Assembly (NCBI GenBank): GCA_021805665.1
Contig: JAJZEV010000017.1
Span: forward strand, 1-33,840
Direction of reading: 5' to 3'
DNA length: 33,840 bases
Source of the DNA: Pseudomonadota bacterium
GTDB taxonomy: Bacteria; Pseudomonadota; Alphaproteobacteria; Acetobacterales; Acetobacteraceae
The notes below the pieces were generated by a model. The model was given only the letters and a program-made list of their open reading frames with translations, had not been told where the DNA came from and searched no databases. Of the stretch, positions 6,623-25,818 are shown in pieces. How positions within the stretch are numbered: position 1 is the stretch's first letter; each line of letters starts with the position of its first letter. The translations under genes were made by a program, and so were the position numbers.

Positions 6623-6666
6623 TGTCTATTATAGTTGTCAGTTAGAAGTGTCATGTATATCTGACA
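6623..6666. promoter_or_regulatory. divergent crtE/crtD control region with tandem PpsR sites
   Basis: A perfect TGTC-N10-GACA palindrome (PpsR/CrtJ consensus) lies at 6649-6666. A second element, TGT-N12-TCA, lies at 6623-6640, again exactly 8 bp away. For crtE (leftward), a consensus TATAAT -10 (plus-strand 6628-6633) sits inside the weaker site, and the region that would hold its -35 is inside the strong site. For crtD (rightward), TTGTCA (6635-6640) and TATATC (6656-6661) are possible but poorly spaced (15 nt) promoter elements. One bound PpsR tetramer could silence both directions; this is inferred. Confidence 0.75.
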
Positions 6667-11839: not shown

Positions 11840-11857
11840 TGTAAACATAAGATGACA
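11840..11857 (-). promoter_or_regulatory. single PpsR-type site upstream of crtI
   Basis: A TGT-N12-ACA element (TGT 11840-11842, ACA 11855-11857) lies just upstream of the crtI ATG, between crtI and the small membrane gene before it. The inner positions are A and G rather than the C/G of the TGTC-N10-GACA ideal. No second site at the 8-bp spacing is present. Its closeness to the start codon means it would overlap the start of transcription or the leader. A clear -35/-10 pair is not evident. Confidence 0.6.
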
Positions 11858-13419: not shown

Positions 13420-14287
13420 GAAGCACCCGCGTTCTTAGCAGCGTGGCGATCTCCGCGGGCCGTTCTTCATGCGCGAGGTGGCCGAGACCCTTCATCGATA
13501 TCAGTTCGGCTTTAGGCAGCAGCGTCTTGATGCGATGTGCCTGTGCGGGCGGCACCATGCCGTCCTGGCTGCCGGTCACCAGGATCAGGTCGGACGTCAA
13601 ATGTGGCAGGTCACGGACCAGCGGATGCAAATCCCAGTGTGCCATCAGCGCCAGCGCCCCGTGGACATGCCCGGCATTGGCGGTCAACCGGGCGTACAGA
13701 CGCATGCCGAGCGGATCGATGCGGGAGCCCGTCGATCCGATCAGCCGCTCCACCGACGGGCGAGAGCCGGTGAACAGCGTCAGCGCCCGGGCCGTCAGGG
13801 AGGAACTGGCCAGAAACCGGGCGGCGGGTCCCAACAAGCCGTTGGCAATGCCGGGGAAGGGAAGCAGCGCGCCGTTCAGACTGAAAATCGCCTCGGGCGA
13901 GATCAGGCCATCCAGGGCCATGCGAATCGCCACCGCCGCGCCGGCCGAATGGCCCGCCGCCAGGATCGGCCGCAACCCAAGCTGGCGCAGTAAGGCCGCG
14001 ATGCCGCTGGCGACCGATGGCAACGCGAAGCCGGATTGCCGCATCGGCTCGCCGGTAAAGCCATGCCCTGGCAGATCGGGCGCGACGACGGTGAAATCCG
14101 CCGCCAGTATCGGCATCGAATCCCGGAAGGAATGGGTGGATGCACCAGTCCCGTGGATCAGCAGCACCGCCGGTCCCGACCCCTGAACCTGAACATGCCA
14201 CCGCAGCCCACCGGCGGTCACGAAGCGGCTGGACGCGCGGTTCGGCCAGTCCCGGCCGTCGCGCTCCCAGTTCAGCCGCCGGGTCAT
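13403..14287 (-). CDS. bchO: BchO, alpha/beta-hydrolase of the magnesium chelatase operon
   Basis: A 294-residue alpha/beta-hydrolase. It has the HGTGAS oxyanion region near residue 45, a nucleophile elbow GHSAGA with Ser114, an acid in VTGSQDGMVP and a terminal GLGHLAHEE histidine. BchO is found with bchI and bchD in most purple bacteria. Its exact reaction has not been established; a supporting role in magnesium chelation or porphyrin handling has been proposed. The ATG at 14287 overlaps the bchD stop by 4 nt (ATGA), confirming the bchI-D-O operon. A much longer upstream extension of the frame is a shadow of bchD. Confidence 0.92.
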   Translation of the reverse strand: MTRRLNWERDGRDWPNRASSRFVTAGGLRWHVQVQGSGPAVLLIHGTGASTHSFRDSMPILAADFTVVAPDLPGHGFTGEPMRQSGFALPSVASGIAALLRQLGLRPILAAGHSAGAAVAIRMALDGLISPEAIFSLNGALLPFPGIANGLLGPAARFLASSSLTARALTLFTGSRPSVERLIGSTGSRIDPLGMRLYARLTANAGHVHGALALMAHWDLHPLVRDLPHLTSDLILVTGSQDGMVPPAQAHRIKTLLPKAELISMKGLGHLAHEERPAEIATLLRTRVLHATAA

Positions 14288-16002
14288 GCCGCACCCGCTT
14301 CCCGGATCGCGCGGGACAGCGAGGATGCGTCGGCATAGGGAAGCGGCAGGTAGCGCGCCCGCATTTCCGCCGCCAATCGCGCGGCGAACGGGTTCGGACG
14401 CGGCGAGGTATCGATCAGCAGCGCGGCCACGCCGCTGGCGCGCAGGGTCAGGGCACTGGCCATCGCATCGGCCTCGGCATGCTGGCGGCCGGTGCCCCCG
14501 TCGCGCGCGACGTTTGCCCTTGCATCCGTCAGCAGCGTGACAACCGGCGTGCGGCCGGAGCGGCGGATGGTTTCGGCCAGGGTCATCGCTGCCTCGATCC
14601 CCGCGGCCAGCGGTGTCGGGCCGCCGCCCGGCAAACCGGCCAGACCGCGCTTCGCCCGCGGCAACGACCCGGTCGGCGGCAGCAGCAAGGTGGCCGCATT
14701 GCCCCGGAAGGCGATCAAGGCGACCTGATCGCGCCGGACATAGCAGTCCGCCAGCAGCAGTTCCACAGCGCCCTTGGCCTCCGCCAGCCGGTTCAGTGCG
14801 GCGGAACCGGAGGCATCGACCGCGAACACCGTGGTTGTGCCGATCCGCTGGCGAAAGCGAACGATACGAAAATCTTGTCGGCACACTTTGAACCGGTCTG
14901 TCTTGCCACGCAGACGCTGCCACGGCGCGGCGGCCTTCAAAGTCTCCAGCAGGTGAAGCCTGGCGCCGTCGCGCGGATCCCCCGGCCTGGTGCCAACGGG
15001 GCGTCCGCGCTTGATGGAAAATCTGGCCTGTCCGGCCCGCCCGGGTGCCCGAACCAGCCCGCGGGCGGCATCCGTACTGGCCAGTTGCGACAGCAGATCG
15101 GCCGGCAGCGCGGCTTTCGCGGCGTCCAGCACCCTATCTTCCAGCGGTTTGTCCGCAGCCGACAGATCGTTTCCCGCATCGTCCCCGGGATCGTCCCCGG
15201 GATCGTCCGGTGCGTTCGCCGCCGGTTCCGGTTCGCCGCGGGTTTCCCCGTCCGGCGGCAAGCACATCGTTCGCGGCGCCAGCACCAGACGCGCGGCCAG
15301 TGCAAGATCGGCCTCCGCGACCTGTTCGCGTCCGGCAAGGCGCGCCGCGACCCGGGCCGCGCGCAAGGCCAGCAGCGGCGGATGCGGCGAGTCGATCCCC
15401 AGCGCGAACGCCGCGTGGCAAATGGCTTCCGTCGCGCCGTCCGTCGGTGGCGATCGGGCGGCTTCCGGCAACGGGGCGACATCGGCCAGATCGGCCAACG
15501 ATACCCCGGTCAGGTCCAGCAGGAACGCGAACCGGTCCAGCAACGAAGCCGGCGGATGCTCGTCCTGCACGCCCTCATCCAGCGCCACGATGCCGAACCG
15601 CGCCGGTAACACACGGGACAATCCATCGCGGTGCAATGTCACCGAACCGGAGTCCATCGCCGCGCGCAATCTGGCGCCAACCCCGGCATCGATGCGTTCG
15701 GCCATCGCGAGGACCAAAACCCCGCCGTCGGCCTCGGCAAGCAGGCCCTTCTGCACCACGGGCCGGCCCGCTTGCAGGGTGGCGGACAGATCGAGTCCGC
15801 CAAGCAACCGGTCATCGCCCGTATGCAGCGGCAACCGCCGCACCGGCATGCCTGCTGGCAAAGCCTGCCACAGCAGCGCCAGAAACCGATCCCGAACCGG
15901 CCCGGCACCGGCCCGCACGCACAGGCCACCGAGCCCGACCGGATCGTCCGCGAACAGTGCCGTGGCCTGAAGGGCATCGATCCAGGCCCGGCCCGCCGTC
16001 AT
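14284..16002 (-). CDS. bchD: magnesium chelatase subunit D
   Basis: BchD forms the AAA+/integrin-I-domain double ring with BchI that drives insertion of Mg2+ into protoporphyrin IX by BchH, the first committed step to bacteriochlorophyll. The 572-residue protein has a degenerate AAA+ half without an intact Walker A, then an acidic, proline-rich linker (about 266-279, repeated Asp-Asp-Pro-Gly), then a C-terminal von Willebrand A domain. That domain shows a metal-site motif DASGS at 396-400, a downstream GGGPTPLA threonine and a TDARAN aspartate. The start (16002) overlaps the bchI stop by 4 nt. Part of the linker is encoded by a 12-nt tandem repeat (15178-15210). Confidence 0.96.
   Translation of the reverse strand: MTAGRAWIDALQATALFADDPVGLGGLCVRAGAGPVRDRFLALLWQALPAGMPVRRLPLHTGDDRLLGGLDLSATLQAGRPVVQKGLLAEADGGVLVLAMAERIDAGVGARLRAAMDSGSVTLHRDGLSRVLPARFGIVALDEGVQDEHPPASLLDRFAFLLDLTGVSLADLADVAPLPEAARSPPTDGATEAICHAAFALGIDSPHPPLLALRAARVAARLAGREQVAEADLALAARLVLAPRTMCLPPDGETRGEPEPAANAPDDPGDDPGDDAGNDLSAADKPLEDRVLDAAKAALPADLLSQLASTDAARGLVRAPGRAGQARFSIKRGRPVGTRPGDPRDGARLHLLETLKAAAPWQRLRGKTDRFKVCRQDFRIVRFRQRIGTTTVFAVDASGSAALNRLAEAKGAVELLLADCYVRRDQVALIAFRGNAATLLLPPTGSLPRAKRGLAGLPGGGPTPLAAGIEAAMTLAETIRRSGRTPVVTLLTDARANVARDGGTGRQHAEADAMASALTLRASGVAALLIDTSPRPNPFAARLAAEMRARYLPLPYADASSLSRAIREAGAA
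15178..15210. repeat. 12-nt tandem repeat coding the BchD acidic linker
   Basis: The unit ATCGTCCCCGGG occurs at 15178-15189 and 15190-15201, and a third partial copy follows (15202-15210). It is in frame with bchD and encodes Asp-Asp-Pro-Gly repeats of the flexible linker between the AAA+ and vWA halves. In-frame slippage here would change linker length by four residues per unit. Confidence 0.8.
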
Positions 16003-17012
16003 CCGAACAGTTCCTCGACCGCCCGGGTAACCCGCGTGCTGGCCACCGCGTCATCCAGCGGGTTCCGTCTCAGCCGATGCCCCAGGACCATCGGCGCGAT
16101 CTGACGCAGGTGCCGGTCGGCGACCTCCTCGTCGCCATCCAGCGCTGCAATGGCCCGCGCGGTGCGGATCAGTGTCAGTTCGCCGCGCAGGCCATCGGTG
16201 CCAAGCGCCATGCACAGCCGCGCGGCGCGTTCCAGCGCGATGTCGGGGACGGTGACCGAGGGCAGCCGCGACCGGGCAGCGACGATGCGCCGGCGCAGCT
16301 TGTCCTGCGGCTTGCGCCAGGTTTCGGTGAAACCCGCTGGATCGCGCTCGAAACCGTCGCGCCGGCGAATGACCTCGATCCGGGTCGGCAAATCGCGGGG
16401 CGTTCGCACCTCCACCGACAGGCCGAACCGGTCGAGCAACTGCGGGCGCAGTTCGCCTTCCTCCGGGTTGCCGCTGCCGATCAGCACGAAACGGGCCGGA
16501 TGGCGGACGCTGAGGCCTTCCCGTTCGACGACGTTCTCGCCCGAGGCTGCGACATCCAGCAGCAGATCGACCAAATGATCTTCCAGCAGGTTGACCTCGT
16601 CGATGTAAAGAAAACCGCGATTGGCGCGGGCCAGCAGGCCTGGTTCGAACACCTTCGATCCAGCCAGGGCGCGTTCCAGGTCCAGCGCGCCGACCAGCCG
16701 ATCCTCCGTCGCACCCAGCGGCAGATCGACCACCGGGACCGGGGCGGTCACGGCTTTGCCATCGCCCGCGGTTCGGCACGCTTCGCACCAAAGATCCGAT
16801 ACCGCGGGATCGCAATGATACCGGCACCCGTCCATGACTTTCATCGTGGGCAGCAGGGCGGCGAGCGCCCGGATGGTGGTGGATTTACCCGTGCCGCGAT
16901 CGCCGAAAACCAGGACGCCGCCGATCCCCTGATCCACCGCGGCGGCCATCATCGCGAGCTTCATGTCTTCCTGCCCGACAATCGCGGCGAACGGGAAGAC
17001 AGCACGCATCAT
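15999..17012 (-). CDS. bchI: magnesium chelatase ATPase subunit I
   Basis: BchI is the AAA+ ATPase of magnesium chelatase. The 337-residue product opens with FPFAAIVGQEDMKLA and carries Walker A GDRGTGKST (37-45), Walker B FLYIDEVNLL, a sensor region LIGSGNPEEGELRPQLLDRFG, and the family insert with VDLPLGATEDRLVG. The start is ATG 17012 or the adjacent ATG 17009. It heads bchI-bchD-bchO and has its own upstream control region in the 158-nt gap after the phytochrome gene. Confidence 0.97.
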   Translation of the reverse strand: MMRAVFPFAAIVGQEDMKLAMMAAAVDQGIGGVLVFGDRGTGKSTTIRALAALLPTMKVMDGCRYHCDPAVSDLWCEACRTAGDGKAVTAPVPVVDLPLGATEDRLVGALDLERALAGSKVFEPGLLARANRGFLYIDEVNLLEDHLVDLLLDVAASGENVVEREGLSVRHPARFVLIGSGNPEEGELRPQLLDRFGLSVEVRTPRDLPTRIEVIRRRDGFERDPAGFTETWRKPQDKLRRRIVAARSRLPSVTVPDIALERAARLCMALGTDGLRGELTLIRTARAIAALDGDEEVADRHLRQIAPMVLGHRLRRNPLDDAVASTRVTRAVEELFG

Positions 17013-17083: not shown

Positions 17084-17156
17084 TTTATCGTGCAATCGAT
17101 CGGTGACTGTCAATGTTAGTTGTCGCTTCTGTGGTGTGTGTCATGTCAAATTGACA
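17084..17156 (-). promoter_or_regulatory. bchI promoter region with PpsR site
   Basis: A perfect TGTC-N10-GACA palindrome lies at 17139-17156. Leftward of it, a TTGACA -35 (plus-strand 17108-17113) and a GATAAA -10-like element (17084-17089) are 18 nt apart. A degenerate TGTC-N10-GTCG element at 17108-17125 overlaps the -35. Here the two sites are 13 bp apart rather than the 8 bp seen at bchC and crtE/crtD. Control of bchI-D-O by PpsR is inferred from the motif; the -10 assignment is weak. Confidence 0.6.
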
Positions 17157-17170
17157 CTGACCCGAGGAAG

Positions 17171-19336
17171 TCAGCCGTCCTCGCCCTTGGATGAGTGCCA
17201 AATCAAACATCCCAGCATCTCCGCCGTTCGGGTCACCGATGCCCGGACGGCTTCCAGCATGTGCGGCATTTCAGCCGGATCGACACCATCGGCGATTTCC
17301 AGCGCCGCGAGCTGCGCGTTTTCCACCATCACGCCCAGCAGGTTGCGGAATACCAGGTCGGCCTTGGAATCCAGCCGGCCGGACATCGGGCGATGCTGCT
17401 CGATCACGCCTTCCTGGAATCGCCGGCGGGCTGCTTCGGCGGCCTGCCGCTCCGTCAGGTCGGTGAACATCAGCACGAACCCCAGCGACCGGTCCCGTTG
17501 GGCGAAAACCGGATCGGCCCTGACCAACAGCGGGGTGGGCTGCCCGCCGCGGCCGTCGAGCATGACTTCCCCGCGCCAGCCGCGTCCGCTTTTCACCAGA
17601 TTGCGCAATGCCTCGATCGCATCGTCCGGGCCGGCCAGCAGCGTGCGCAAGTCGCCCATGGATGACGGCCGCCGGGTGTGCGGCGGCAGCAGCGCATCGA
17701 AGGCGGAGTTCATCTGCAGGATGATGCCGTCCGGGTCGGTAATAATCACCGGATTCGCCGATTGCTGGATCTGCCGGCGCACCTGATTCAACTGGTCCTC
17801 CGCGATCAGCGAACGAACCGAGCGGAACTGGAGTACGACATCGGTGACGGTGTCGCCGATCAGGCGGCCGGCGGCATGGTCGGCGGGGCCCCAGGGATCC
17901 GACGTGCCCTCTACCAGTTGATGCCATTGTGCGAACGACCGGCGCGGCGACAGGGTCAGCGGATCGTCGCCCATCAGATGCGGCTCATTCGGGTTGCCGC
18001 CCCAGGTGACCGTGCGGACCCGCTCCGGGCGCAGCCAAACCAAATATTCGCCGGGCATTGTGGAGATTGGCACCGCCAGCAGCCCGCTGGCGATCGATGT
18101 CAGGCTGGCGAAGTCCGGGGCGTCGCGGCCGAAGGCGGCTGTTGCGGTCAATCCGGGCTGTTGGCGGTCCAGCCATCGGCCGATATCGCGCAGTGCCGCG
18201 GTGCTGGGTACATCGCCAACGGTTCGGACCTCGCCCTCGAACAGCAACGCCGCGCCGGTCGCCCCGACTGGTTCCAGCAGCGCTGTCGAGTTGTCGAACA
18301 ACGCGCTGCGCCAGTCGCCCTCGCGGGAGATGGACTGGATCATGCGCTGTTCGAGTCGTCTGACCGAGAACTCGGCCCGGGCCTGGGCGAAGCTTTCCAG
18401 GGCGGCGATCCGGGTGGCGACGGCTTCGGCCAGCAGTTCGCAGACCGCCCGTTCCTCGAAATGGATGAAGCGGGGGGCGTAATGGTGGCAGGAGACCAAA
18501 CCCCACAGTTTGCCGTTGACCATCAGAGACACGACCAGGGTGCCGCGCACGCCCATGTTCTTCAGATATTGAACATGGATCGGCGAGATACTGCGCAAAA
18601 AGCACAGCGACATTTCCAGTTGCTCGCCGGTAATGGGCGACAGGGCAGGGATCAGCGGCGCCGGCCGATATTTCACATCGTAGAGCACCCGAATGCGATT
18701 GCGTTCGTACAGGCGTCTGGCGATTTGCGGGATGTCGGACGCCGGGTAGCGATTGCCCAGCAACGGCTCCAGCGCCGCTTCCTTTGCCTCCGACAGCACC
18801 TCGCCATGGCCTTCGTCGTCGAAGCGATAGACCATGACCCGGTCGTAGCCGGTCAAAGTTCTGAAAATACGTGCGGTTTCGTCGCTCAACGCGCGCAGTC
18901 CGGCCGCCGCCATGATCGCCTGAACCGACTTTTCCAGCGTCGTCGACAGCTCGACCGATGGGCCAGCGCCTTCCAACTCGATGATCAGGCCACCGCCGAG
19001 CGGACGATGGATCAGGCAGTCGAATGGACGGCCGCCGGGTCCGATATGGCAGCGGACACCGCGGCAGATTTCATGTAGGGAATCGGAAAAATGCGGCTGA
19101 ATCCGTTCCGCCAGGTCGCCCGGAATATCGTCGATCTGGCGACCGATCAGGGAGCCGGCGATACCCATGAAGGCAGCCGCATTCTGGCTGCACTGAACGA
19201 CCGTGTAACCCGGTTCGCTTAACAGAAGCAGCGCGCCATGCGGCTGGATAGAACCGGCGAGGTGAAGTTGCTCCCGCTCGCAATTCAGTAAGTCAGCCTG
19301 TCCGAAGGCTGGCGTGGAAACCGAGCGTGTCGGCAC
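17171..19336 (-). CDS. bphP: bacteriophytochrome with PAS-helical output, no kinase
   Basis: A 721-residue biliverdin photoreceptor. The PAS-GAF-PHY core is complete: Cys19 in LLNCEREQLHLAGSIQPHG is the expected chromophore attachment site, PASDIP at 198-203 contains the key Asp201, and His254 and His284 match conserved chromophore-pocket histidines. WGGNP and PRRSF, typical of the PHY tongue, are present. The C-terminus has another PAS domain (about 535-650) and a helical tail (RRRFQEGVIEQH to HSSKG). I see no histidine-kinase ATPase motifs. This matches the PpsR-antagonising phytochromes of Bradyrhizobium and Rhodopseudomonas (BphP1 type). The start is GTG at 19336, 17 nt after the ppsR stop and behind a G-rich ribosome site, so both are probably one transcript. 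Whether the dark state is Pr or Pfr cannot be read from sequence. Confidence 0.93.
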   Translation of the reverse strand: MPTRSVSTPAFGQADLLNCEREQLHLAGSIQPHGALLLLSEPGYTVVQCSQNAAAFMGIAGSLIGRQIDDIPGDLAERIQPHFSDSLHEICRGVRCHIGPGGRPFDCLIHRPLGGGLIIELEGAGPSVELSTTLEKSVQAIMAAAGLRALSDETARIFRTLTGYDRVMVYRFDDEGHGEVLSEAKEAALEPLLGNRYPASDIPQIARRLYERNRIRVLYDVKYRPAPLIPALSPITGEQLEMSLCFLRSISPIHVQYLKNMGVRGTLVVSLMVNGKLWGLVSCHHYAPRFIHFEERAVCELLAEAVATRIAALESFAQARAEFSVRRLEQRMIQSISREGDWRSALFDNSTALLEPVGATGAALLFEGEVRTVGDVPSTAALRDIGRWLDRQQPGLTATAAFGRDAPDFASLTSIASGLLAVPISTMPGEYLVWLRPERVRTVTWGGNPNEPHLMGDDPLTLSPRRSFAQWHQLVEGTSDPWGPADHAAGRLIGDTVTDVVLQFRSVRSLIAEDQLNQVRRQIQQSANPVIITDPDGIILQMNSAFDALLPPHTRRPSSMGDLRTLLAGPDDAIEALRNLVKSGRGWRGEVMLDGRGGQPTPLLVRADPVFAQRDRSLGFVLMFTDLTERQAAEAARRRFQEGVIEQHRPMSGRLDSKADLVFRNLLGVMVENAQLAALEIADGVDPAEMPHMLEAVRASVTRTAEMLGCLIWHSSKGEDG

Positions 19337-19353: not shown

Positions 19354-20769
19354 TTATTCCGTCGAATATGCTCCCGCGTGCGGCTGACCGTCCATCTCGT
19401 ATTGGGCAAGCTTCTTGTAAAATCCTTGCCGGCTCATGCCCAAAATCTCGGCCGCCGCCGTACGGTTGCCGCGGGACAGGTCTAACGCAGCAAGGATATA
19501 GTGGCGTTCGACCAGACCGACAGTGTCGCGGACCAAGGTTTTCAGCGCGGTTTTTCCGGTCTGTTCGATGATCGCGGCCAGGGCGGATTGCAGGCTTGCG
19601 TTGGTTTCGCTGGATGACAGCCGCCGTCCGACATCGCGCATAAGCAGGACGATCTGGCTGGGTCGCGTGGACGTGTTGCCAACGGCGGAGATTTCCACAT
19701 CGGTTTCGCCGCCGAGTTCGCCTTGGATGCCCGTCGCGAACAGGCGCACCGACCCGTGTCGGTTCAGGTTGGCCATCAGCACCGGCAAGTCGGCCCCGGG
19801 GCGGGCGAGGAAACGGCCCAGCGGTTCGCCCAATACCGCGCCCTCCGCGCCCACCTGAACAAGATCGAGGAACGCCCGGTTGGCCCGCCGGATCATGCCG
19901 TCGCGGTCGGTCACGACGAACGCGTCGGGCAGGCGGTCCACGAATTCATCGAGGGCGGTTTGCTTGACGTCGGGCACCGGGGTTTGCATTCCCGCTGCCG
20001 GCGCGAGTTGCACCATGAACATCTGGCCGGGATCGCTTGTCATCAACGAGGCCCGGACCAGCCAGCCGTTACGATCCGGTCCCAGGTGCAGCAGCACCCC
20101 GGGCGCCCGGCCCGACTGGCGGACCCGTTGCAGCATGGCCTGAAACGGCTCCCGCTCCTCCGGCGCCATTTCCGGCAGCAGGTCGCGCCCGCGTGCCAGA
20201 CCCAGCGCGCGGATGGCGGCTGGATTAGCTTCCATGATCCGCAGCGTTTCGGCCTGCAGCATCAGCACCGCTTCGTTGGAGGCGTCGAACAGCAGGCGGT
20301 AGCGGGTTTCGACCTCCCGCAGTTTCCAGTATTCCTGTTCCATCGCCTGCTGGGCGGCGATCAGGCGGGATTGCAGTTCGGCGACGGCATGCAGGTTTCG
20401 TCCGATAGCGATCAGCCCGGCCTGCCCGCCGAGTCGCACGGTGGTGTACTCCATCGGCACCTCGATGCCGCTGGGGAAGCGTTGATTGACCTGACGGTAG
20501 GCGGACACGCCGTTGTCGCGTGCATCCGCCAGCATACGCAATACCTTGCTGCTGACGCCCTCGCCGACGGTTTCCACCCATGGCCGTCCGCGCCAATCGG
20601 CGACGGATTCCTCGGCAACCGCATTGGACAGGCTGACATTCTGGATAATGCCGTCCAAATCGAGCATCAGCGTCACATCTGGTTGCGCGATGTTGATGCC
20701 GGGTAACTGAGCGACGGGGATGGTAACCTCCTGAAGACGACACCTTTGCAGGTAGGGAGGGTCTAGCAT
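19354..20769 (-). CDS. ppsR: photosynthesis gene repressor PpsR/CrtJ
   Basis: PpsR binds TGT-N12-ACA sites and represses bch, crt and puc genes. The 471-residue frame shows an N-terminal PAS (about 28-125), a Gln/Glu-rich helical linker (AELQSRLIAAQQAMEQEY, 130-147), PAS1 (about 155-255), PAS2 (about 275-380) and a C-terminal Fis-type helix-turn-helix (TAAAEILGMSRQGFYKKLAQY, 437-457). The only cysteine is residue 10, which lies in an N-terminal stretch that may not be translated. The redox-active cysteines known from Rhodobacter sphaeroides PpsR are absent. The start used is ATG 20769, without a clear ribosome site. A perfect AGGAGG at 20727-20732 sits 5 nt before an in-frame ATC (20721), so a shorter product from a rare start is possible. 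The downstream phytochrome gene is the likely light input. Confidence 0.94.
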   Translation of the reverse strand: MLDPPYLQRCRLQEVTIPVAQLPGINIAQPDVTLMLDLDGIIQNVSLSNAVAEESVADWRGRPWVETVGEGVSSKVLRMLADARDNGVSAYRQVNQRFPSGIEVPMEYTTVRLGGQAGLIAIGRNLHAVAELQSRLIAAQQAMEQEYWKLREVETRYRLLFDASNEAVLMLQAETLRIMEANPAAIRALGLARGRDLLPEMAPEEREPFQAMLQRVRQSGRAPGVLLHLGPDRNGWLVRASLMTSDPGQMFMVQLAPAAGMQTPVPDVKQTALDEFVDRLPDAFVVTDRDGMIRRANRAFLDLVQVGAEGAVLGEPLGRFLARPGADLPVLMANLNRHGSVRLFATGIQGELGGETDVEISAVGNTSTRPSQIVLLMRDVGRRLSSSETNASLQSALAAIIEQTGKTALKTLVRDTVGLVERHYILAALDLSRGNRTAAAEILGMSRQGFYKKLAQYEMDGQPHAGAYSTE

Positions 20770-21093: not shown

Positions 21094-21685
21094 CAGTTGC
21101 AAGACGGAGCGTGCGCCCGCGCGTGGATCGTTGTCAAAGGAAATTGCGCATCGGGCCGTGCCGCCGACATAAAATCATTGGGCGCCGTGCCGGCCATGTC
21201 GTGCGACCGGATAGGCATGGCGGAATTCTTTACCGGTTGGCCGTCTGTCACGCAGGCTTTGCGGGGTGATCCGCATGAACGAAAGCCCCGTTGGTTCGCA
21301 CCCAAAAAAAGGACGCGGCCCCCGCACTGGCGCCGGTGGCAACCGGATACCCCATGCTGGGGTCTGCTCGGTACCAGCGGACATGTTCTCTGTCTGTTCG
21401 CTAGCCATCGCCGCCGCCGGATGTATTCCACGACGATAATGAACGTCCAGCCAAAGCAGCAGCGCACGAAAGATACCAGCAGCGCGGGAGCGCTTCACGT
21501 TTTCATCCATGAGTCCACGCGCCCGAATAAACGACTTGCGAAGAAACGCCTCGTTACGCGGCGCGCTTAGCGAGGCTGTGCGCGGCATCCGGATTGGGCC
21601 CCCGTGGCAGGGGCCGCGTCGGGCGGCGCTTGAGTGAAGCCGCAACCAAGCGTAGAGCTTGGGTAACGAAACAGGGAGACATGCG
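21094..21685. other. intergenic region without a convincing gene
   Basis: This stretch separates the photosynthesis genes from the accessory cluster. Open frames exist on both strands (for example leftward from 21510), but their translations are arginine-rich and resemble no family I know, and none has a good ribosome site. No transposase, tRNA or attachment site was recognised. A GGCCCC/GGGGCC hairpin with a 7-nt loop lies at 21597-21615, about 70 nt before the next gene, and CCCCA/TGGGG flank a short loop near 21350. The AG-rich GGGAG before 21686 is the ribosome site of the next gene. Confidence 0.5.
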
Positions 21686-22150
21686 ATGACCGAGGCAAAA
21701 CTGGCGCCGAATCTGCCGGGATGGATGCTGGAACACACCAACCGCTACCTGGCCAGCGGCGGCACCGACGGCCATATGTATCGGATGACGATGCCCGGCC
21801 GGCCGGAAATGACGGTGCCGTCGTTGCTGCTGACCACGACGGGGCGAAAATCCGGCGAAAAATACATCTTCCCGCTTTTCTACGGCGAATCCGGCGGCAG
21901 TTGTTTCGTCGTCGCTTCGAAGGGCGGCGCGCCGGAACATCCCGGCTGGTATCGCAACATCCTGGCGAACCCCGATGTCGAGGTTCAAGTCGGTACAAGG
22001 AAATTCCATGCCAGGGCGCGTACCGCGGCGGGGGCGGAGCGCGCGACGCTTTGGAAGAAGGGGCTGGAATTCTGGCCACCTTACGCCGACTACCAGGTCA
22101 AGGCAGGCGATCGGGAAATCCCGGTTGTGGTACTCGATCCGATCGCCTGA
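21686..22150 (+). CDS. deazaflavin (F420)-dependent nitroreductase family protein
   Basis: A 154-residue protein of the Ddn-like split beta-barrel family. Diagnostic stretches are LLTTTGRKSGEKYIFPLFY, the central FVVASKGGAPEHPGWYRNI and LANPDVEVQVGTRKF. Actinobacterial members bind F420, but many proteobacterial relatives have unknown cofactors, so the reaction is not assigned. The start is ATG 21686 with GGGAG about 10 nt upstream; a TTG at 21659 in the same frame is less likely. It lies 52 nt before a GMC oxidoreductase on the same strand and is probably cotranscribed with it. Confidence 0.85.
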   Translation: MTEAKLAPNLPGWMLEHTNRYLASGGTDGHMYRMTMPGRPEMTVPSLLLTTTGRKSGEKYIFPLFYGESGGSCFVVASKGGAPEHPGWYRNILANPDVEVQVGTRKFHARARTAAGAERATLWKKGLEFWPPYADYQVKAGDREIPVVVLDPIA

Positions 22151-22202
22151 CGCTTGCCGGCGGCCGGGCTGTCGCGCCGATCTCCCGGGGGGAGCAAAAA
22201 CA

Positions 22203-23801
22203 ATGGAAACGTACGATTACATCGTTGTCGGGGCCGGTTCGGCGGGATCGGTCCTGGCCAACCGTTTGAGCGCCGATCCGAAACACAAGGTGCTGGTGCT
22301 GGAAGCGGGGCGGGAAAGCCATCCGTGGTCCCGCGTTCCGGTGGGGTTCGCCAGGCTGATCGAAAACCCCGCCGCCAACTGGCTGTATGCGTCGGAACCG
22401 GAAGCATCCACCGGCAACCGGCGGGTTCCGGTTCCGCGCGGCAAACTGCTGGGCGGATCGTCGTCGATCAACGGCATGGTGTTCGTGCGCGGCCAATCGC
22501 AGGATTATGACACCTGGGCACAGCTTGGGAACCGCGGATGGAGCTACCGGGAGGTGCTGCCGATCTTCCGCGACATGGAAAGCTACCAGGGTGAGGGGGA
22601 CGACGAGTATCGCGGACGCAACGGCCCGCTGAAAGTCACCGAAAATATCGAATCCGGCCCGATCTACGATGCACTGATCAAGGCGGCGGGCGAAGTCGGC
22701 ATCCGCTATACAAAGGACTACAACGGCGCCTCGCAAGACGGCATCGGCATGACCCAGGCGACCATCCGCGACGGCCGCCGCATGAGCACCGCGGTCTGCT
22801 ACCTCGACCCCGCCCGTTCCCGTCCGAATTTGACGATCCAATCGCGGGCTTTGACGGAATGTCTGCTGCTGGACGGCAAACGCTGCGTCGGCGTTCGTTA
22901 CACCGTCAACGGCCAGCAACGCGAAGCCCGGGCATCGCGGGAGGTCGTGGTCAGCGCGGGGTCCATAAACTCCCCGCAGTTGTTGGAACTGTCGGGAATA
23001 GGGCAGCCGGATCTGCTGCAAGGGTTGGGCATCGAGGTGCGCCATGCGCTGAAAGGTGTCGGGGAAAATCTGCGGGACCATTATTCACCGCGCATGAAAT
23101 GGACCGTGCCGCGCTCGCTGGGGCTGACCTACAACGATCACGGACGCGGCGTGAAGCTGGTGTGGCAGGCGCTGAAATATGCGCTGACCAACAAGGGCCT
23201 GCTTGGGCTGCCGGCATCCCCGATCAGGGCCTATGTGCGCACACGGGCCGGGCTGGATGCCCCGGATGCGGCGATTTCCTGGATACCGTTCCTGGCCGGG
23301 GCGAACTTCAAGCTGCATCCGGACTCCGGTGTGACCGCGATCACCAACATCCTGCGGTCGGAAAGCACCGGCAGCATCCATGTCTCCTCCGCTTCGCCCA
23401 ACCGCGCGCCGGCCATTCGTTTCAACTTCCTCAGCGCGCGGCTGGATCAGGAGGTGACGCTGGAGGCGATGCGCATCACCCGGCGGATCATGACCGCGCC
23501 GTCGATGAAGGACATCGCGACGGATGAAATAGCACCCGGCCTTAATGTAGATTCGGACGACGAACTGCTCGATTGGGTGAAACACAATGCGGAGACGACC
23601 TATCATCCGGTCGGGACCTGCAAAATGGGGTCCGACCCGATGGCGGTGGTGGACGACCAGTTGCGGGTGCATGGGATGCAGGGACTGCGTGTGGCGGACG
23701 CGTCGATCATGCCCACGCTGACGTCGGGCAACACCAACGCGCCGTCGATCATGATCGGGGAGAAGGCATCGCGCATGATCCTGGCGGACGCGCGGGCTTA
23801 G
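22203..23801 (+). CDS. GMC family FAD-dependent oxidoreductase (choline dehydrogenase-like)
   Basis: A 532-residue flavoprotein oxidising an alcohol group of unknown identity. It has the N-terminal FAD motif YIVVGAGSAGSVLANRL, the GMC signatures PRGKLLGGSSSINGMVFVRG and AGSINSPQLLELSGIG, and the catalytic His in TYHPVGTCKMG with the Asn in SGNTNAPSIMIGEKAS. No signal peptide is present, so it is cytoplasmic. The start is ATG 22203, with GGGGGAG upstream. Its TAG stop overlaps the TAA stop of the convergent gene by 2 nt, so no room exists for a separate terminator. Confidence 0.93.
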   Translation: METYDYIVVGAGSAGSVLANRLSADPKHKVLVLEAGRESHPWSRVPVGFARLIENPAANWLYASEPEASTGNRRVPVPRGKLLGGSSSINGMVFVRGQSQDYDTWAQLGNRGWSYREVLPIFRDMESYQGEGDDEYRGRNGPLKVTENIESGPIYDALIKAAGEVGIRYTKDYNGASQDGIGMTQATIRDGRRMSTAVCYLDPARSRPNLTIQSRALTECLLLDGKRCVGVRYTVNGQQREARASREVVVSAGSINSPQLLELSGIGQPDLLQGLGIEVRHALKGVGENLRDHYSPRMKWTVPRSLGLTYNDHGRGVKLVWQALKYALTNKGLLGLPASPIRAYVRTRAGLDAPDAAISWIPFLAGANFKLHPDSGVTAITNILRSESTGSIHVSSASPNRAPAIRFNFLSARLDQEVTLEAMRITRRIMTAPSMKDIATDEIAPGLNVDSDDELLDWVKHNAETTYHPVGTCKMGSDPMAVVDDQLRVHGMQGLRVADASIMPTLTSGNTNAPSIMIGEKASRMILADARA

Positions 23802-25396
23802 TCGAACAACACCGACAGTCGCTGTTTTATTTGGTCGGCGATGTACAGCGCCAGCGCCTGGATGGTGGAGGTTGGGTTTACCCCGCCCGACGTGACCCAA
23901 ATGCTGCCATCGACAATGAACAGGTTCTTCACGTCGTGGCACCGGCCCCATGCGTTGACCACGGAACGATCCGGGTCCGTCCCCATGCGCGCCGTGCCCA
24001 GCAGATGCCCGGGGTAATTCAGCAGGGTCCGGGACGCGGAGATATTCGTCGCACCCGCGGCGGTCAGGATTTCCTCCGCCCGCGCGATGCCATGCTCCAT
24101 CATCCGCCTGGTATTCTCGCTGATGGTATAATCGATTTTCGCCGCAGGGATGCCGTTGCCGTCCGTCAGCACCGGATCCAGGGTGACGCGGTTGTGTTCC
24201 TCCGGCAGATCCTCGCAGGCAACACCGATCGCCAGCCGCCGATACACCAACTCCCGGTAAACCCGGTGATGGTCCTTGCCCCAGGGCAGCCGGCCGGCCG
24301 CCGCGCTGGTGATCGCCTCATTCACCACCCCCGTACCGCGGCTGAATTGCAGCATGTAGCCGCGGACGAAATCGCGAGACGGGTCGGTTTCGTAGAACTG
24401 CTTGCTCCACAGGCTGGTGATCGGCGCGCGGTCGCCGTCCACCCGCTCGTTCGCATAGCCGACTACCATCGGCCAGGGATGCATCATCAGGTTCTTGCCG
24501 ACCAGCCCGCTGGAATTGGCCAAACCGCCGGGAAACCGCGACGATACCGAATTCAGCAGCAGACGCGGGGTGCCGACCCCGTTGCAGGCCAGAACGACGA
24601 CCTCGGCCGGCTGAAAATGCTCGATGCCATCGGCGTCGTAGTAAATCGCACCCGACGCCATGCCGTGTTCGTTCGTCACGATCTCCCGCACCCGGCAGCG
24701 TGTCCGCAACTCCACCCCCGCGCGGAGTGCGTGCGGCCAATAGGTGATGTCCGTGCTGGCTTTCGCCCCCTGCGCGCACCCCGGGGTGCAGTGCCCAAGG
24801 TTGATGCAGGGCGCGCGGCCTTCGTATTCGGTCGTTGCCACCGTGGTATCGGACGGCCACCAGTGCCAGCCCAGCGCGTTCATCGCCAGGGCGTACCGTG
24901 TTCCGGTCTTGCCCAGCGGCACCGGCGGCATCGCGGGCGCGCGCGGCGGAACCCCCGGATCGCCGGCCAATCCCGAAACACCCATCATCCGGTCGTTCTC
25001 GGTATAGAACGGCTCCAGCGTGCGATAGTCGATCGGCCAGTCGTCGGCGACGCCATCCAACGACCGGACACGGAAATCCGACGGGTGCATCCGCGGCCAG
25101 TGCGCCGTATAGATAATCGTCCCGCCGCCAACCGCGTTGAAGTTGGCGACCTTCATGATGGAGGCATCGTCGTTCACCGGATAATCGGTCACCCGGCCGC
25201 GCTTGTTCGGGCTGATATCGAAATCCCCGTACCGCCGAGCCTCCCAATCCCGCCCATTGCTGGGAAATTCCGACGGCTTGATCCAATCGCCTTGTTCCAG
25301 GCACAGGATACGCATTTTCGTGTCGGCCAGGCTGTAGGCGACCGCCGCGCCCGACGCGCCGGAACCAATGATCAGTACATCCACGATCTCGTTCAT
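23798..25396 (-). CDS. GMC oxidoreductase with 3Fe-4S-type cysteine motif
   Basis: A 532-residue protein related to the large subunits of FAD-dependent glucose, gluconate and fructose dehydrogenases. It has the FAD motif VLIIGSGASGAAVAYSL, NAVGGGTIIYTAHWPR, a catalytic-side His in NYPGHLLGTARMGTDP and Asn in VNPTSTIQALA. Cys197, Cys203 and Cys207 form C-X5-C-X3-C (CINLGHCTPGC), the same spacing as the 3Fe-4S ligands of Burkholderia FAD-glucose dehydrogenase. The ATG at 25396 overlaps the stop of the upstream subunit-3-like gene by 4 nt, which supports a two-subunit enzyme. No cytochrome c subunit is nearby and no signal peptide is seen. The substrate is unknown. Confidence 0.92.
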   Translation of the reverse strand: MNEIVDVLIIGSGASGAAVAYSLADTKMRILCLEQGDWIKPSEFPSNGRDWEARRYGDFDISPNKRGRVTDYPVNDDASIMKVANFNAVGGGTIIYTAHWPRMHPSDFRVRSLDGVADDWPIDYRTLEPFYTENDRMMGVSGLAGDPGVPPRAPAMPPVPLGKTGTRYALAMNALGWHWWPSDTTVATTEYEGRAPCINLGHCTPGCAQGAKASTDITYWPHALRAGVELRTRCRVREIVTNEHGMASGAIYYDADGIEHFQPAEVVVLACNGVGTPRLLLNSVSSRFPGGLANSSGLVGKNLMMHPWPMVVGYANERVDGDRAPITSLWSKQFYETDPSRDFVRGYMLQFSRGTGVVNEAITSAAAGRLPWGKDHHRVYRELVYRRLAIGVACEDLPEEHNRVTLDPVLTDGNGIPAAKIDYTISENTRRMMEHGIARAEEILTAAGATNISASRTLLNYPGHLLGTARMGTDPDRSVVNAWGRCHDVKNLFIVDGSIWVTSGGVNPTSTIQALALYIADQIKQRLSVLFD

Positions 25397-25818
25397 GGTG
25401 CGTCCCGCCACAGTTTCGGGCGGGCGCGAACCGGATCCAGCAGCGACCAATCCCCTTGTTCCAAAATATGGCCGCGCGGAAACGGCGGCCGCGGTTCCAG
25501 CCCCAGCGAGCGGATCACCCGGTCATCGCGATAGTAACATTGCAGAATAACCCGGCCCAAAGTCGCAACGGCGGGGCCGGGTTCGGCAAGCAGCGCGGCT
25601 GCCGCCTGGTCCGGGGCGCCGCCGCCGGATAAATCGGCAAACCGGCCCAGCGCGGCGCGCACCTGGCCACGGTCGCGGCCCAGTGAGCCGAGAATATCGG
25701 CAAATATCGCGGCATCGTCCGCTCCGGGCACATCGAATTCCTCGCTGGCCGGAATCATGGTGCCGGCCAGCAGCCGCAGGTCACGGATTTCCTCAGCGGT
25801 CAGATCGGTATCGGACAT
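25393..25818 (-). CDS. gluconate 2-dehydrogenase subunit 3-like protein
   Basis: A 141-residue, mostly helical protein starting MSDTDLTAEEIRDLRLLAGTMIP, with the family's TMIPASEEFDVPGADD region near residues 20-35 and a GHILEQGDWSLLDPVR end. In FAD-dependent sugar dehydrogenases this small subunit is needed for folding and, via its Tat signal, for export of the flavoprotein. Here no Tat (twin-arginine) signal is present. The 4-nt overlap with the GMC gene indicates a complex that stays in the cytoplasm; this is inferred. It begins 9 nt after the MBL-fold gene. Confidence 0.8.
   Translation of the reverse strand: MSDTDLTAEEIRDLRLLAGTMIPASEEFDVPGADDAAIFADILGSLGRDRGQVRAALGRFADLSGGGAPDQAAAALLAEPGPAVATLGRVILQCYYRDDRVIRSLGLEPRPPFPRGHILEQGDWSLLDPVRARPKLWRDAP

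Follow-up and report, generated by a model that had tools for sequence, protein, structure and literature searches.

A PpsR2 repressor gene lacking the redox cysteines beside a bacteriophytochrome gene in a Rhodopila relative, with a probable non-canonical start codon

The stretch of DNA analyzed here (the window; 33,840 nucleotides) carries a ppsR2 gene from a relative of Rhodopila globiformis; among the matches listed, its nearest named relatives were R. globiformis DSM 161 and Rhodopila metagenome-assembled genomes. The gene is read from the minus strand, and a plus-strand reading of the same interval was interrupted by stops. The predicted protein matched TIGR02040 (PpsR-CrtJ) at 479.3 bits (curated cut-off, 275.4 bits) over model positions 4 to 441 of 442. 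PAS and Fis-type helix-turn-helix (HTH) domains were identified by profile search, and residues 29 to 382 matched the PpsR structure 4HH2. The features of the locus are collected in Table 1.

Table 1. Features of the ppsR2-bphP locus (positions in the window)
Feature	Position	Strand	Comment
PpsR-type palindrome immediately before crtE-like gene	6649..6666	plus	
PpsR-type palindrome immediately before likely start of crtI-like gene	11840..11857	plus	
bchD	14284..16002	minus	NF009943, 731 bits
bchI	15999..17012	minus	TIGR02030, 494 bits
PpsR-type palindrome in bphP-bchI gap	17139..17156	plus	TGTCATGTCAAATTGACA
bphP	17171..19336	minus	PAS2-GAF-PHY-PAS9 and C-terminal region; Pfam
ppsR frame of the original prediction	19354..20769	minus	471 codons from ATG; single Cys is residue 10
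ppsR2 as probably translated	19354..20721	minus	455 amino acids from ATC, zero Cys; TIGR02040, 479 bits
Tyr424 codon, column of the HTH redox Cys	19498..19500	minus	Alignment to Rhodobacterales PpsR
Probable non-canonical start ATC	20719..20721	minus	Residue 17 of the frame (I17)
Shine-Dalgarno AGGAGG	20727..20732	minus	5 bases before ATC; identical in 9/9 Rhodopila loci
Cys10 codon	20740..20742	minus	Probably within the untranslated leader

Redox-sensing PpsR/CrtJ proteins were recognized by a cysteine in the HTH (CrtJ C420) and another in the PAS2 region (C249). The HTH column was defined from three plasmid-encoded PpsRs of Rhodobacterales (VEKMCIETA or IEKICIETA) and is occupied in the window protein by Tyr424. 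The PAS2-region cysteine of 4HH2, a structure of R. sphaeroides PpsR, aligned with Val253. The original prediction, which gave no strand, had stated that the redox cysteines are replaced and that residue 10 is the only cysteine; the first statement was borne out at both columns and the second for the whole ATG frame.

The same prediction had placed bphP directly downstream, and this gene does start 17 bases past the ppsR stop, on the same strand. Its product was assigned the Pfam domains PAS_2, GAF, PHY, and PAS_9, and no HisKA/HATPase (kinase domain) was detected in it by Pfam. The NF041576 model gave 338 bits, below its 1,040-bit cut-off. The best solved-structure match was 4gw9 (828 bits, residues 7 to 633), and the alignment keeps NCERE (Cys19), YPASDIP, PRRSF, and SCHH, which we take to be chromophore-site motifs. 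Passages of PMC6899989 identify 4gw9 as RpBphP1 without its HOS region. The last 91 residues of the window BphP matched phytochrome tails beside related ppsR2 genes, and by this likeness the C-terminal region is taken as HOS. On its domains and motifs, the protein classifies as an RpBphP1-type (type 3) phytochrome, with a predicted PAS-GAF-PHY-PAS9-HOS order, no kinase domains, and an N-terminal bilin cysteine.

Downstream of bphP come bchI and bchD, after which crt and bch genes continue as far as bchY. On the other side, ppsR is preceded by an F420H2-dependent quinone reductase-like gene and by a convergent pair of GMC oxidoreductase genes (frames 21659 to 22150 [+], 21975 to 23801 [+], and 23798 to 25450 [−]). 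Sites of the form TGTN12ACA numbered 3 in the window against 3.07 expected by chance, and the palindrome in the bchI gap was absent from the same place in three relatives (L033, L035, and L037). Since they are no more numerous than chance predicts and the bchI site is not kept in those relatives, these sites were rejected as evidence.

PpsR relatives were found with two PpsR2 peptide patterns and limited to the best 80 of 171 matches, by which PpsR1 is under-sampled. Nine loci (L032 to L040) had been dropped earlier as duplicates of named contigs. From the 104 sequences gathered, 17 were removed (the partial or near-identical L051, L059, L064, and L089 and 13 of 16 Gemmatimonadota rows), leaving 87 rows for a tree built by a quick method (LG+G4). 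The tree divided into 40 PpsR1 and 47 PpsR2 rows (SH-aLRT support for the split, 100), and the window protein fell within the PpsR2 clade, which includes proteins of Rhodopseudomonas (L087, L092, and L097). A bphP gene downstream, on the same strand and within 1.5 kb, accompanied 43 of the 47 PpsR2 rows (the exceptions being L072, L074, L078, and L091) versus 0 of the 40 PpsR1 rows. At the HTH column, the PpsR2 rows have Tyr (41), His (2), Phe (2), or Cys (2; L072 and L082), whereas Cys is present in 32 of the 40 PpsR1 rows; the other eight have Ala (L071 and L122), Ser (L092 and L097), Tyr (L108), or Phe (L100, L101, and L130). Before row removal, the HTH cysteine was present in 33 of 54 PpsR1 rows versus 2 of 48 readable PpsR2 rows (50 in all), and bphP was downstream in 44 of 50 PpsR2 versus 0 of 54 PpsR1 rows; restoring the dropped rows adds to PpsR1 one row with Cys and 13 Gemmatimonadota rows with Phe.

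Given these counts, the lack of the cysteine is no chance oddity of the window copy. Cysteine loss and bphP adjacency divide the tree at a single old branch; the 87 rows therefore offer only three independent pairs, and a statistical link between the two traits was discarded for want of power. As read from the tree, the loss is one old change and not a repeated correlation. The PpsR2 branch seems to have been without the thiol switch from early on, rather than individual strains having lost it as a quirk. A single clade made up only of the rows with bphP was rejected by the approximately unbiased (AU) test (P = 0.008), as expected from the four PpsR2 rows lacking bphP that are interspersed with them.

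Several rows depart from the general pattern. L072 (positions 521 to 1891) encodes a PpsR2-clade protein that has the HTH cysteine (VERHCIEAAL) and no adjacent bphP; redox sensing may have been regained here once the phytochrome was lost. L082 has both the cysteine and bphP. All 16 Gemmatimonadota PpsRs among the matches listed have Phe at the HTH column (L100, L101, L103 to L107, L109 to L111, L113 to L116, L120, and L130). Expression of photosynthesis genes in Gemmatimonas phototrophica is described in passages of PMC11406998 as unchanged by oxygen despite the presence of ppsR, and the missing HTH cysteine may explain this indifference. In two Rhodopseudomonas strains, this column of PpsR1 is Ser (L092, residue 463; L097, residue 417), in contrast to the role of redox copy that PMC6899989, in the text available, gives to PpsR1.

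The window locus is read here, with a probability of roughly 0.85, as the known ppsR2-bphP1 module, switched by light, devoid of a thiol switch, and translated from an AUC codon. PpsR2 would bind TGT-N12-ACA operators of the photosynthesis gene cluster and repress bch and crt genes, and BphP converted by far-red light would offer its C-terminal two-helix HOS to PpsR2 and take the repressor off DNA. With no cysteine at the HTH or PAS2 position, the window protein presumably cannot use a thiol switch, and any redox input would come from a second, cysteine-bearing PpsR1 encoded elsewhere in the cluster. Published relatives point the same way: excerpts of PMC4452267 describe the PpsR2 of Bradyrhizobium as lacking the HTH cysteine and as presumably devoted to light control, with R. 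palustris PpsR2 likewise lacking it, and excerpts of PMC6899989 describe wild R. palustris PpsR2 as no redox sensor and as controlled in far-red light by BphP1, through a light-driven 2:1 RpBphP1:RpPpsR2 complex formed by HOS. The idea of light control for a PpsR2 without the cysteine is thus already in print for both organisms in these two sources. PF01126 heme oxygenase was not found in the window draft (G000), G019, or G020 and was present in 8 of the 11 genomes searched; in G013 it lies (39002 to 39598) on the contig of ppsR2 itself, just before that gene (39849 onward). Its absence from the draft counts against a light switch, as it leaves the biliverdin supply unproven although bphP keeps its chromophore-site motifs.

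PpsR2 might instead answer to redox without cysteines, through heme, another cofactor, or a partner. The title of a work in the reference list of PMC4452267 calls PpsR a heme-sensing protein, and CrtJ is described in passages of PMC5362033 as binding to many targets in vivo whether or not oxygen is present, so that the cysteines are not the whole story. Against such a response, the C436A protein of Rubrivivax PpsR showed no redox difference in binding, according to the accessible text of PMC4452267; there the variant still represses in air and loses only a small redox response, and hence repression itself does not require the cysteine. We consider a cysteine-independent redox response unlikely, and we prefer the light-switched module.

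Translation of ppsR2 was examined in nine Rhodopila loci. All of them share the sequence CAGGAGG, with a five-base spacer between it and ATC (eight loci) or ATT (G002). Within it, CAG GAG is invariant at every base, third positions included, while neighboring positions vary: between −75 and −14, none of 62 positions is identical in all nine loci, and the commonest base averages 4.3 of 9. In four loci (G006, G008, G013, and G002), the frame is closed by a stop 10 to 18 codons upstream, and the codons from there to the ATC/ATT include no ATG, GTG, or TTG; an upstream in-frame canonical codon, 16 to 42 codons away, is present in the other five (the window, G020, G010, G024, and G029). Downstream, a canonical start was found 3 to 8 codons from the ATC/ATT in G006, G024, G013, and G002, and none within 14 codons in G008, the window, G020, G010, and G029. 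Since no one canonical position fits all nine loci and the ATC/ATT does, the start is probably this codon (I17 in the window). In the sister locus L074, GGAGG-N5-ATT is present and the interval from the stop to the core contains no canonical start, whereas PpsR2 loci outside the Rhodopila group have ATG, GTG, or TTG near the same place, mostly with a weak or absent Shine-Dalgarno sequence. AGGAGG-N5-ATH was found 11 times in 289 kb of Rhodopila sequence (19 loci, chosen for holding a ppsR), and 9 of these occurrences are the ppsR2 starts. A non-canonical AUC/AUU start of ppsR2, conserved in Rhodopila and the sister line, is therefore judged highly probable from sequence comparison. No common RNA fold was found around the start (z scores of −0.19, 1.12, and −2.31 for the three of nine 120-base leaders that were folded). 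An AlphaFold model of PpsR2 was too weak for use (mean pLDDT, 56.7); its unordered residues 1 to 31 and first strand at 32 to 36 fit a start at I17 and are no proof of it.

If PpsR2 instead started at the upstream ATG, Cys10 would be present in the protein and could act, for example, via an intermolecular disulfide. That ATG lies in frame 16 codons before the ATC and is shared by G020; G029 likewise has an ATG in frame at this distance, and in-frame GTG or TTG codons lie further up in G010 and G024; Bradyrhizobium PpsR1 is said in passages of PMC4452267 to sense redox by a single cysteine, although one located in the HTH. The nine-locus comparison weighs against this start, both through the upstream stops of the four loci without an intervening canonical codon and through the base-for-base conservation of CAG GAG. 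Moreover, the ATG (position 20769) is preceded by no Shine-Dalgarno sequence of at least 4 bases, and in G006, G008, and G024 the stretch matching it reads TGTAAACC(A/G)TGGTATGAC, with no in-frame start inside. Initiation at the upstream ATG is accordingly rated very unlikely. A start at the residue 17 ATC, which follows a strong Shine-Dalgarno sequence, would leave Cys10 in the leader, so that the finished protein probably contains no cysteine. PpsR2 of G006, G008, and G024 keeps one cysteine (C49, counted from the ATC/ATT), so total absence of cysteine is not general among Rhodopila PpsR2 proteins.

AUU, AUC, and AUA starts are found in infC and other bacterial genes and are weighed by initiation factor IF3. 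Genes of the infC type share with Rhodopila ppsR2 a strong Shine-Dalgarno sequence before the non-canonical start; ppsR2 differs from them in encoding a photosynthesis repressor. As an in-genome control for rare starts, infC was set aside as ambiguous, ATA and ATG both being conserved in the eight infC loci read. In these loci (L135 to L142), the ATG of infC is preceded by a conserved AGGAG and then ATA-GCN, which suggests that IF3 itself may start at AUA in Rhodopila. In vitro, as reported in excerpts of PMC10158994, raising the amount of IF3 reduces the fraction of product that is full length when AUU is decoded by the initiator anticodon CAU. Constitutive expression of Bradyrhizobium PpsR2 whatever the aeration, described in passages of PMC10734443, fits post-transcriptional control and equally fits none. 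By analogy with infC, it is tentatively suggested that an IF3-weighed AUC/AUU start could tie the amount of PpsR2, and with it photosystem expression, to the state of the translation machinery besides far-red light. In listings of open-licence PMC papers, and in passages of two of these, neither a published non-AUG start of ppsR nor a PpsR of R. globiformis was found, and the conserved non-canonical start seems new. It is an uncommon kind of start for a regulatory gene and will be misplaced by gene finders limited to ATG, GTG, and TTG.

A PpsR1 with the HTH cysteine was found alongside ppsR2 in eight other Rhodopila genomes (G002, G006, G008, G010, G013, G020, G024, and G029; those of G002 are both truncated at contig ends). 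The view that light and not thiol oxidation relieves repression is well supported for the protein, given its clade, in which the cysteine is rare, its adjacent bphP, and its published relatives, and is weakened for the cell as a whole by these PpsR1 genes. Its account of thiol chemistry also has the sign reversed, as in Rhodobacter PpsR/CrtJ oxidation strengthens DNA binding and reduction weakens it, according to portions of PMC4452267 and PMC5362033. The window draft (4.55 Mb, 94.5% complete) contains one PpsR above the TIGR02040 cut-off, as would be seen had this organism lost PpsR1 and come under regulation by light alone, a possibility even more remote than the upstream start and rejected as unproven because bchL, above cut-off in the 10 other genomes searched, is missing from the draft as well, as is the rest of that stretch (the 10.66-kb PpsR1-bchG-bchP-bchF-bchN contig of G020 matches the draft only in ppsR2 itself). 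The joint absence makes PpsR1 look like a missing piece of the draft, and redox control through PpsR1 is likely in the window organism, judging from its relatives. G019 contains two different PpsR1 genes on two contigs (L041 and L050), with contamination listed as 7, and is perhaps a mixed bin.

Compared with known systems, the window protein shares the N-PAS1-PAS2-HTH architecture of Rhodobacter PpsR/CrtJ and differs in the absence of the HTH and PAS2 redox cysteines; beside its gene lie bphP and the quinone reductase-like gene, not appA or aerR. The arrangement of ppsR2 upstream of bphP is recorded in passages of PMC5362033 for Bradyrhizobium ORS278, R. palustris, and Thiocapsa. By description rather than sequence, the PpsR2-BrBphP system of Bradyrhizobium ORS278 resembles that of Rhodopila in having two PpsRs, of which the one without the cysteine is tied to light and bphP (excerpts of PMC4452267, PMC10569730, and PMC5362033). 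RpPpsR2-RpBphP1 of R. palustris has the same ppsR2-bphP order and a phytochrome with PAS9 and a two-helix HOS and without a kinase; RpPpsR2 is 49% identical to the window PpsR2, and that of strain XCP (L097) also has Tyr at the HTH redox column. The XCP gene has an ATG in the usual place, in contrast to AGGAGG-N5-ATC/ATT in Rhodopila. R428 of PMC6899989, in the text available, is the Arg of LSRQSLY in L097 numbering, separate from the Rhodobacterales redox column, and if the numbering of CGA009 equals that of L097, its C428 would be a cysteine elsewhere and not the ancestral redox cysteine. More near-infrared-controlled repressors of the PpsR2 kind could serve as optogenetic parts, and the PpsR2-BphP1 switch, as predicted here, would reach beyond Rhodopseudomonas, Bradyrhizobium, and Thiocapsa into Rhodopila and various other lineages.
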